Assembly: GCF_000744415.1 (NCBI RefSeq)
Contig: NZ_JQLW01000011.1
Coordinates: 1 to 64,000, forward strand
Direction of reading: 5' to 3'
Length of the DNA stretch: 64,000 bases
From: Ghiorsea bivora
GTDB taxonomy: Bacteria; Pseudomonadota; Zetaproteobacteria; Mariprofundales; Mariprofundaceae
This document shows, piece after piece, positions 26,537-29,321 of the stretch. Under the pieces are notes generated by a model, which made no database searches, was not told where the DNA came from, and saw nothing but the letters and a program-made list of their open reading frames with translations. Made by a program: the position numbers and the translations under genes. Numbering within the stretch: the first letter of the stretch is position 1; every line of letters starts with the position of its first letter.

Positions 26537-27175
26537 ATGAAAATATTCTTTTCAGTAGGCGCAATGCCTCAAGTTGGTAAAAAAGCATGGCGATTGCAAA
26601 ATGATGGCACTTGGCGCAGATGCACCTTTGGTGAAAGCTTAAAAGAACATGATGCCAAGCTGACAGATAAAAAAGAAGTCAGCAACTGGATTAATGTACG
26701 CTTAGTTGAAGACAAGAAAACAGGTTTAAAAGTCAAAGGAAAAGTCAGGCTGCTTGATTTTTTTGTCAGCGGTATTGTCTCCTATGTGACCGTACACCGC
26801 TTCTCCCCAGCCCCTATCCCTGATAAAAACCAAATGATAAACGCCATCGCCCAAGCCGAAGTTGGCACACCTTGGTTATTGTATATCGACCTTGCAGGCA
26901 ACTTCCGTATGCTAAACAGCGAAGAAACACCCATTATTGCCAACCCAGACATCGCAGTGCGTGGTGAAATCGCTTCATCTGAAGCCTTTATGGGCAAGCA
27001 AGCTGCCCAAAACACCGAAAAGATGGACGAGCTTTACCTTCAATTCGTTGCAGGCTGGTTAACCCACTTAGAAACCCGTCGTTTATCAGTATTTATCCCT
27101 GAAACCAAAGATATTCATTCACTTGAAGATTGTATTGAGAAAATCCAAGCCTGGCAGCATGAGACCTTAGATTAA
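26537..27175 (+). CDS. Conserved-looking hypothetical protein (212 aa)
   Basis: I cannot assign this protein. It starts at an ATG with AGAGG nine bases upstream. It is soluble, with no signal peptide or transmembrane helix. Recognisable elements are a basic N-terminus (MPQVGKKAWRLQNDGTWRRC), a strand-rich middle, and an acidic helical C-terminus (DIHSLEDCIEKIQAWQHE). Base composition resembles the flanking housekeeping genes, unlike the AT-rich pocket after it. It lies between rnd and the frameshifted HEPN-like locus. Confidence 0.65.
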   Translation: MKIFFSVGAMPQVGKKAWRLQNDGTWRRCTFGESLKEHDAKLTDKKEVSNWINVRLVEDKKTGLKVKGKVRLLDFFVSGIVSYVTVHRFSPAPIPDKNQMINAIAQAEVGTPWLLYIDLAGNFRMLNSEETPIIANPDIAVRGEIASSEAFMGKQAAQNTEKMDELYLQFVAGWLTHLETRRLSVFIPETKDIHSLEDCIEKIQAWQHETLD

Positions 27176-27181
27176 GCCATC

Positions 27182-27738
27182 ATGAAAAAAAGAAATTAAA
27201 AGGTTATCCAGGGTGGACTTATCGGGAAATCTTAAACCCTACAACAGGAGAAAGAAAAAACAGGTATTTCTTCAAGCAAAAACCTGCGAAAAGGATTGTT
27301 TTAACAAGCAGACTAAGTCAACAGCTTGCTGGCTACGTATTAATTGAGAAAGATTTAAGAAACATCCTTGAGTGGCTTTCAAAAATAAATGACCTTATAC
27401 CTAAAGACCAAGCACCCACAAAAGGTAAACAATTTACTATTGCTACAGACAAAGAACTATATAGCGTTATAAAAGCCTTGTTTGTTGCTTTGGTATCCTT
27501 CTATGGAAAATGCTTTACTTCATGTGAAGGGAGAAGGGTAAAGCTTGAAAAAATCTGGGTAGATGAAAAGTTTCAAGAAGAGCATGAAACTCTAATCGGT
27601 TATCGCCATAATTTTACAGCCCATAGTGGAGCAGATAAATTTGAAGAAGTTAAAATTGCTGCTGTTTTAGACCCCAAAGAAAGAAGAGGAATGCTTCCAA
27701 TTCTAGTTAAAGAGCTAAAAACTTATGTCATATCCTGA
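27182..27738 (+). pseudogene. HEPN-like hypothetical protein, frame broken in an A-run near the start
   Basis: A long frame ends at 27738 but has no good start: the first start codon in it is a TTG at 27478. The ATG at 27182 leads into seven As (27185-27191) and then into the wrong frame. Adding one base in this run joins ATG to the full frame and gives a coherent 185-aa protein beginning with four lysines and KLKGYPGWTYREIL. The C-terminal half has YRHNFTAHSG, matching the R-X4-6-H pattern of HEPN ribonuclease domains. Options are a real inactivating indel, transcriptional slippage at the A7, or a sequencing error. The DNA here is visibly AT-richer than neighbours, suggesting acquisition. 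The HEPN call is tentative. Confidence 0.5.
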
Positions 27739-27865
27739 TGAAGAAGATAGCTTTAAAAAGCTAGTTATGAGCCTTCAGTCAAAAGTTCGAACAAAAATAC
27801 TGACGTTAGAAAAGAAAATTATAACTGATGATATAATAGCAAAAGGTAAAGAGTACTGGTACTAA
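27725..27865 (+). CDS. Small ORF (46 aa) overlapping the HEPN-like gene
   Basis: A 46-codon frame starts at ATG 27725, 14 nt before the end of the HEPN-like frame, and ends at TAA 27863-27865. The peptide is acidic at the start (MSYPDEEDSFKKLVM) and basic afterwards, ending KGKEYWY. Coupled translation from the upstream gene is likely. The two-gene layout with overlap is that of many toxin-antitoxin or small defence pairs, but order and sequence give no direct support for an antitoxin. No known domain. Confidence 0.45.
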   Translation: MSYPDEEDSFKKLVMSLQSKVRTKILTLEKKIITDDIIAKGKEYWY

Positions 27866-27907
27866 GTATGCACCTCCCTTTACACAAAATAAAAAAGGAC
27901 TATTTCA

Positions 27908-28708
27908 ATGTCTTCAATACCTAAGAAAATAATGACCATCAATATGAACGGTATTCGTGCTGCAACACGCAAAGGCTTTTGGGATTGGTTTGCCCCGCAA
28001 GATATTGATGTGCTTTGCATTCAAGAGCTGAAAGCCAAAGAAGAACAAATCCCCGAAGAAGCCAAGCCTGATGGATACTTTCGCTATTATCATATCGCTG
28101 AAAAAGCGGGATACTCAGGTGTGGCGCTGTATTCCAAGGTTGAACCTGATGCGGTGCATGTGGGGCTTGGCTCGATTGACTCTGATGTGGATTGGAGCGA
28201 CATGGATGCTGAAGGTAGGTTTGTCATGGCTGATTTTGGTAAACTTAGCATAATGAGCGTATATTTTCCTTCGGGTTCAAGCTCGGATGAGCGCCAAGCC
28301 ATTAAAATGAGTTTTTTGGAGCGTTTTCTGCCCTTGTTTAACCGCCTTAAAGATGAAGGGCGTGAACTGATACTGTGTGCGGATGTGAATATTTGCCATA
28401 AGGAAATCGACTTGAAAAACTGGCGTGGCAATCGCAAAAACTCAGGCTTTTTACCCGAGGAACGCGCTTGGATGGATGCGCTGATTGAAAAAAGCGGATT
28501 TGTGGACACATTCAGAACACTTTACCCTGAAAAAGAGCAGTATTCATGGTGGTCAAATCGCGGACAAGCCAGAGCCAACAATGTGGGCTGGCGCATTGAT
28601 TATCATATCGCCACACCTCAAATCGCCAGCAAATTTGAGAAGATTGAAGTCTATACTGATGCATGGTTTTCCGACCATGCGCCAGTATTGGCAACGCTTA
28701 AAGATTAG
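27908..28708 (+). CDS. xthA: Exodeoxyribonuclease III / AP endonuclease
   Basis: A base-excision repair nuclease that cuts 5' to abasic sites. The 266-aa EEP-fold enzyme has the metal-binding TINMNGIRAATRKGF (Asn) and QELKAKEEQ (Glu), the CADVNICHKEIDL catalytic Asp-Asn, and the WRIDYHIAT and WFSDHAPV pairs (Asp-His). The start follows GGA in a weakly purine-rich leader. The gene product acts with MutM, encoded about 600 bp downstream, in 8-oxoguanine repair. Confidence 0.95.
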   Translation: MSSIPKKIMTINMNGIRAATRKGFWDWFAPQDIDVLCIQELKAKEEQIPEEAKPDGYFRYYHIAEKAGYSGVALYSKVEPDAVHVGLGSIDSDVDWSDMDAEGRFVMADFGKLSIMSVYFPSGSSSDERQAIKMSFLERFLPLFNRLKDEGRELILCADVNICHKEIDLKNWRGNRKNSGFLPEERAWMDALIEKSGFVDTFRTLYPEKEQYSWWSNRGQARANNVGWRIDYHIATPQIASKFEKIEVYTDAWFSDHAPVLATLKD

Positions 28709-28717
28709 CACAGCAAA

Positions 28718-28754
28718 TTGACACGCAAGGTCTATGCGCATACTTTATGCGTAT
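28718..28754 (+). promoter_or_regulatory. ccdAB promoter with overlapping operator
   Basis: TTGACA (28718-28723), 17 bases, then TACTTT (28741-28746) makes a good sigma-70-type promoter. A near-perfect dyad ATGCGCATA-CTT-TATGCGTAT (28734-28754) covers the -10 box. Toxin-antitoxin operons of the CcdAB type are usually repressed by the CcdA-CcdB complex at such a site; this assignment is inference from position. Confidence 0.65.
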
Positions 28755-28767
28755 CGTGAGGTGTATG

Positions 28768-29010
28768 ATGAAAGTTTATGATATGAAAGCGCCCAAAAAA
28801 GCAGCTAATTTAAGCTTAAATAGTGATTTACTGGCACAAGCCAAAGCTTTAAACATCAATATTTCATCCACTGTGGAAAAGTCATTGGCTGAAGAAGTGC
28901 GCAAACACAAAGAAGCTGCATGGCTTAAAGAAAACAAGGAAGCTATTGAAGAACAGAATAGATTTATCAAAAAACATGGCTTATTTTCAGATAAGTACCG
29001 CGTATTTTAA
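28768..29010 (+). CDS. ccdA: CcdA-type antitoxin
   Basis: Antitoxin of a type II pair that neutralises the gyrase poison CcdB. The 80-aa form beginning MKVYDMKAPKKAANLSLNSDLL has a ribbon-helix-helix-like N-terminus (KAANLSLNSDLLAQAKALNINIS) and a C-terminal acidic/basic helix ending NRFIKKHGLFSDKYRVF, which resembles the CcdB-binding tail of F-plasmid CcdA. ATG 28768 has GAGG six bases upstream; ATG 28765 and an earlier codon are alternatives. The stop overlaps the toxin start by one base (TAATG-like), the tight coupling expected for a TA pair. The neighbouring operator supports autoregulation. Confidence 0.88.
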   Translation: MKVYDMKAPKKAANLSLNSDLLAQAKALNINISSTVEKSLAEEVRKHKEAAWLKENKEAIEEQNRFIKKHGLFSDKYRVF

Positions 29011-29321
29011 TGGCACAGTTTGATGTATATCCAAGCAAAGATAACAGCACGCCTTACCCACTATTTGTGGATATACAAAGTGAGCTATTAACATCATTGC
29101 ATACACGGGTTGTGATACCCTTAACCCCAATTTCTCTTCTCGAAACAAAAGTGCCTGATACGCTATGCCCTATCTTTCATTTAGAGCAAGGTGAATTTGT
29201 GCTCATGACACAGTTCATGTCCAGCATAGCCTCTTCTGCATTGGGGGCTCCCGTTGCCTCACTATCCAATTTTCGTGAAGATATTATTCGGGCTGCTGAC
29301 CTACTCATCACAGGTGTTTAA
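29010..29321 (+). CDS. ccdB: CcdB-type gyrase toxin
   Basis: Toxin of the pair, a 103-aa inhibitor of DNA gyrase. The order is that of CcdB: AQFDVYPSKDNSTPYPLFVDIQS at the N-terminus, RVVIPLTP, LCPIFHLEQGEFVLMT in the middle, and a helical C-terminus where F-plasmid CcdB ends with the gyrase-poisoning Trp-Gly-Ile. Here the final residues are LLITGV, so the Trp is absent; many chromosomal CcdB homologues vary there, and poisoning strength may be altered. It ends 2 nt before mutM, an insertion between repair genes that keeps mutM in line. Confidence 0.9.
   Translation: MAQFDVYPSKDNSTPYPLFVDIQSELLTSLHTRVVIPLTPISLLETKVPDTLCPIFHLEQGEFVLMTQFMSSIASSALGAPVASLSNFREDIIRAADLLITGV

Follow-up and report, generated by a model that had tools for sequence, protein, structure and literature searches.

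A probably decayed copy of the phage gene family phrog_8440, with a putative HEPN-like motif, in a chromosomal cargo slot of Ghiorsea bivora

Results

Genes and features of the locus

The window analysed here is a stretch of 64,000 nucleotides from Ghiorsea bivora (contig NZ_JQLW01000011.1, positions 1 to 64,000). The region from 27182 to 27865 has a G+C content of 34% versus 42% elsewhere in the window, and it lies in a slot between two conserved genes. The features of the locus are as follows.

26537-27175, + strand: conserved gene encoding 212 aa, of unknown function, bounding the slot on the left; present in 14 of 16 genus genomes, mostly next to xth
27182-27191, + strand: ancestral start ATG (27182-27184) and the A7 run (27185-27191), with the first frameshift inside the A-run
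27184-27738, + strand: main piece of the broken gene, 184 codons, without an in-frame start codon; family profile E=5e-69
27604-27624, + strand: RHNFTAH, candidate active site of the R-x5-H type; all 18 aligned sequences agree at R, H, F, A and H
27717-27725, + strand: second frameshift, at the A5 run in CTAAAAACTTATG (27717-27721); homologues stay in one frame here
27725-27865, + strand: C-terminal piece of the same gene (the former '46-aa gene'), 46 codons; profile positions 155-228, E=5.5e-8
27908-28708, + strand: xth-like gene for exonuclease III, bounding the slot on the right; Pfam Exo_endo_phos E=7e-25, conserved in the genus
28747-29010 and 29010-29321, + strand: ccdA/ccdB toxin-antitoxin pair 3' of xth; Pfam CcdA E=5e-31, CcdB E=2e-31

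The zero frame that starts at ATG 27182 closes after five codons (ATG AAA AAA AGA AAT TAA). Shifted back by one base, the -1 frame stays open between 27163 and the TGA at 27736-27738, and its first possible ATG, GTG or TTG does not occur before 27478. This main open frame encodes ...LIGYRHNFTAHSGADKFEEV..., which includes GYRHNFTAHSG, and comprises an N-terminal beta region, helices 1-3 and the R-H motif. At the second frameshift the open frame switches from frame 1 to frame 2, after which the main frame runs to its TGA. The elements listed in the original prediction, namely the ATG, the A7 run, the shifted open frame, the R-H motif, the 46-codon ORF and the AT-richness, were all present as it gave them.

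One gene with two frameshifts

A family profile of 18 sequences matched the window twice, at 27184-27720 and at 27647-27865, with the E-values listed above. Since both pieces match one and the same profile, the locus holds a single gene of ~230 aa with two frameshifts. In complete relatives one ORF encodes the whole protein (225-258 aa), and the counterpart of the 46-codon ORF is the C-terminus of one protein in L002, the nearest genomic relative, in L008, the closest intact relative, and in other full-length homologues (...KIITDDIIAKGKEYWY). Alignment of the C-terminal ends (window ...DDIIAKGKEYWY, L008 ...EDEVRPKGKDYWY, L002 ...EEILPKGAQYWH) and comparison with phage proteins revealed that the short piece holds the conserved last helix and the YW end. 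The two supposed genes are thus the halves of one gene, with frameshifts in A7 and at A5 near 27717-27721, and the earlier view of the 46-codon ORF as a separate second gene was refuted. A toxin-antitoxin pair formed by the two ORFs was also considered and ruled out, the small ORF being aligned to the family C-terminus.

At the other end, the shifted frame reads KKKKL, which aligns with the starts MARKKKL of L008 and MKRKKLEG of L004/L012. Because the window matches these Lys-rich starts in the shifted frame only, the gene start was placed at ATG 27182. The main piece is 49-51% identical to L008 and L002, contains zero internal stops and retains all 14 family-invariant residues, which implies either that the damage is young or that it is a sequencing artefact.

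A prophage gene family of unassigned function

The window piece matched phrog_8440, a family of unknown function, over 166 residues (E=1.5e-34), and the E. coli homologues matched nearly all of its 239 positions (E=3e-117 and 2e-144). Intact members of phrog_8440 are single ORFs of ~239 codons, whereas two frameshifts divide the window copy; lying in two frames, with one frameshift at its start, it would be a degraded, non-working member. It also differs in being chromosomal, between housekeeping genes and with no visible prophage.

The genome scan returned a single relative, L002 (50% identity). Homologues encoded by one unbroken ORF came from tblastn against phage and plasmid collections, in an E. 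coli plasmid-prophage, a filamentous phage of Vibrio and the E. coli phage 2H10. A scan of IMG/VR with the window protein alone gave zero matches; with a five-sequence alignment it gave 28 contigs, among them ones with the gene intact as one ORF. The family occurs in about 90 of 5426 complete E. coli genomes, where it is annotated only as 'hypothetical protein'. Literature searches found no paper on phrog_8440 or on the accessions of the E. coli homologues, and neither the PADLOC models nor NCBIfam matched the family.

The G+C content of the gene was 4-20 points below that of its context in 16 of 16 non-redundant loci. Family genes are orphans with varying neighbours, and a constant neighbour is absent in intact relatives. 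In lambdoid prophages the gene lies between the lysis genes and terminase, in several loci it adjoins an integrase, in others umuC, and one member is found in a filamentous Vibrio phage. L008 is located near a lysozyme gene and a Mor-type activator, which suggests a Mu-like phage. Low G+C together with an orphan, changing context is typical of prophage accessory ('moron') genes. phrog_8440 can be described as an accessory gene, AT-rich and orphan, that is carried by prophages, a plasmid-prophage and phages of both the tailed and the filamentous kind.

Several single loci were recorded in addition. In the phage contigs L022, L023, L028 and L017 the family member has a umuC-type polymerase gene as its direct or close neighbour, and in L088 and L118 (E. 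coli, 2H10 type) the copy lies by a prophage integrase, next to yjjG/rimI. In L002 (5427-6789) it directly follows a BrnT/BrnA pair, and its ORF does not stop where others do but extends into a convergent gene.

The candidate HEPN motif

HEPN proteins are defined by R-x4-6-H with a polar residue after the R (PMC3710099). The family motif RH(N/Q)F(A/T)AH is of this kind, being an RHNFAAH-type R-x5-H with a polar residue following the R, and its R, both H, F and A were invariant across the 18 aligned sequences. In shuffles of the window protein, R-x4-6-H occurred in 42%, and with N, D or H after the R in 4%. An R-x4-6-H in a lone sequence was accordingly dismissed as evidence: the motif by itself means little, and its weight lies in its invariance in 18 sequences.

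The AF2 model of the main window piece reached a pLDDT of 86.6. The model of L008 (pLDDT ~86) contains helices at 43-71, 86-105, 124-141 and 187-217 besides N-terminal beta strands, and in the models the R-H motif closes the third helix. A HEPN-like site gains plausibility from the R...H pair, which is invariant in the family and closes a predicted helix. Foldseek returned no significant match for the models in PDB or BFVD, and a sequence search of PDB gave no match for the family. Pfam AbiU2 matched two members only, on the motif region and under the cut-off (E=0.04-0.05). The hhalign comparison with AbiU2 and HepT alignments was negative, as was its positive control, AbiU2 versus HepT, which makes the comparison uninformative.

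Among known systems, the AbiU2 branch of the HEPN superfamily (PF18734) resembles the family in its R-x4-6-H with a polar residue, its helical core, the position of the motif at a helix end and its phage-related context; the sub-threshold family match (E~0.05), the extra N-terminal beta strands and the lack of a fold match set the two apart. HepT/MntA, a HEPN-MNT toxin-antitoxin system, carries the same kind of motif (GFRNxxxH), whereas the MNT partner is absent beside phrog_8440 genes in the loci read. Nor does an adjacent cognate antitoxin accompany the gene, the small ORF being part of it and intact relatives having no constant neighbour. In a Staphylococcus aureus prophage, the HEPN-motif gene Tha defends against other phages; its product has 301 aa with a C-terminal HEPN domain and R-x4-H, and is tail-activated (PMC11087260). 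Tha would be the best working analogue of phrog_8440, by mode of action and not as an established relative.

A chromosomal slot with changing cargo

The slot (27176-27907) carries different cargo in sister genomes (L070-L085) and is rich in toxin-antitoxin pairs. The cargo includes Phd/PIN, ParE/ParD-like and MNT/HepT genes, a glycine-transporter-family protein, membrane proteins, and proteins without a Pfam match; the HepT/MNT pair fills the same slot in a sister genome. Close relatives were absent from the 15 other genus genomes, 60 relatives and 398 further phylum genomes, the last set yielding no other family member, and among the genomes searched the phage gene is found in the slot of this genome alone.

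Discussion

Decay, sequencing error or a working gene

The best reading of the locus is a recently inactivated, phage-derived and putatively anti-phage gene. That the copy is a horizontally acquired phrog_8440 gene, recently broken by two small A-run indels and now a pseudogene, is in our judgement probable. Other copies are broken as well: L002 carries its own in-frame stop, an E. coli prophage copy (L033, 1510-2067) is truncated by the gain of one A in an A7 run around codon ~168 whereas near-identical copies are intact, and another E. coli copy is interrupted by an IS3 element. As these breaks lie at other sites, loss of the gene is recurrent, with A-runs as one route.

Sequencing or assembly error, by which both frameshifts would be homopolymer miscalls in a gene intact in the living organism, would explain why both lesions fall at A-runs in a main piece that has kept its invariant residues and an unbroken frame. 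We consider it unlikely, since 80 homopolymers of 6-8 bases sit inside 51 kb of intact ORFs (>=200 aa) of the same window, an imperfect control in that the runs were counted within intact ORFs, a choice that passes over any broken one. The A7 run is nothing out of the ordinary for this window, the remainder of which is tiled by long ORFs, and two errors hitting one dispensable gene would be a coincidence. A working split protein, its overlapping ORFs made as two chains and A7 slippage possibly serving the first, is the least probable of the readings, and we give it hardly any weight. ATG 27725 does lie within the end of the first ORF in a stop/start overlap, and the second ORF retains a start codon and the conserved C-terminal helix. 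The split is nevertheless absent from all intact relatives and confined to one genome, and the first chain has no in-frame start codon.

The original prediction proposed instead a phase-variable gene in which A7 slippage toggles the protein on and off. The run stands immediately 3' of the ATG, and A-runs of 6-9 bases occur within the first 30 bases of L012 (A7), L020 (A9), L028 (A7), L026 (A6) and L021 (A6). Runs of at least 6 bases in this stretch were thus found in 5 of 16 intact genes, a mild excess that could come from Lys-rich starts. The A-run indel in L033 demonstrates that runs in the gene do slip; it hit another run, however. One base added at A7 would leave the second frameshift (near 27717-27725) in place and yield 185 residues without the last long helix (187-217 in the L008 model). 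Moreover, L008 has no A-run at its start, the position of the run is not conserved, and gene length did not vary within either E. coli type (23 of 23 copies of one, all 60 listed of the other), including copies with A7 or A6 near the start. A contingency gene, with a tract of varying length and one length that restores the full frame, is not what the second frameshift and these 83 unchanged copies present, and the proposed switch is unsupported and very improbable.

What the intact protein may do

A HEPN-type RNase is the likeliest biochemistry of the intact protein, an assignment that remains putative and that we hold with somewhat more than even confidence; an anti-phage role is favoured by a narrower measure. 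The HEPN-like active site of the original prediction gained in plausibility: the R-H pair was kept in all 18 aligned sequences and ends a predicted helix, while AbiU2 and Foldseek lent it no significant match. The suggested link with phage defence likewise gained support of a contextual kind, intact relatives being orphan cargo genes of prophages.

The intact family may instead be a prophage gene with another function, such as a regulator or a lysis or DNA-repair accessory, in which the R-H motif is structural; we regard this as a serious, though less probable, alternative. Neither a fold nor a curated profile matches HEPN, the N-terminal beta strands are atypical of HEPN, umuC and integrase recur as neighbours, and other residues are just as invariant (D57, W64, Y103, G104, F107, R113 and H130 in L008 numbering). 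Against it, the R-x5-H with its polar residue agrees with the published HEPN definition (PMC3710099), and the weak AbiU2 matches coincide with the motif region.

With the HEPN-type reading preferred, the following history is proposed. A phrog_8440 gene would have been acquired horizontally by a slot in which toxin-antitoxin and other cargo turn over. The intact protein, probably a dimeric, metal-independent HEPN-type RNase, would be expressed from a prophage and protect on its own against other phages; once triggered, it might cleave RNA of the cell or the phage and so make the infection abortive. On a chromosome without its phage, or when harmful, the gene would be lost through slippage mutations. 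A wider generalization is doubtful, namely that unrelated phages (lambdoid, Mu-like and filamentous) share in phrog_8440 a hitherto undescribed, stand-alone abortive-infection family of the HEPN type, whose AT-rich gene is repeatedly silenced by A-run slippage when harmful or useless, its A-tracts acting as a loose off switch at the population level.

The window copy itself is most likely dead, and its value lies in the family to which it points, whose AT-rich orphan genes reside in prophages and share an invariant R-x5-H site. The xth slot, for its part, illustrates the turnover of small toxin-antitoxin and other cargo at a single chromosomal site within the genus. Beyond this slot, the ccdA/ccdB pair (28747-29321) is a complete chromosomal pair, flanked by xth and a mutM-like gene.
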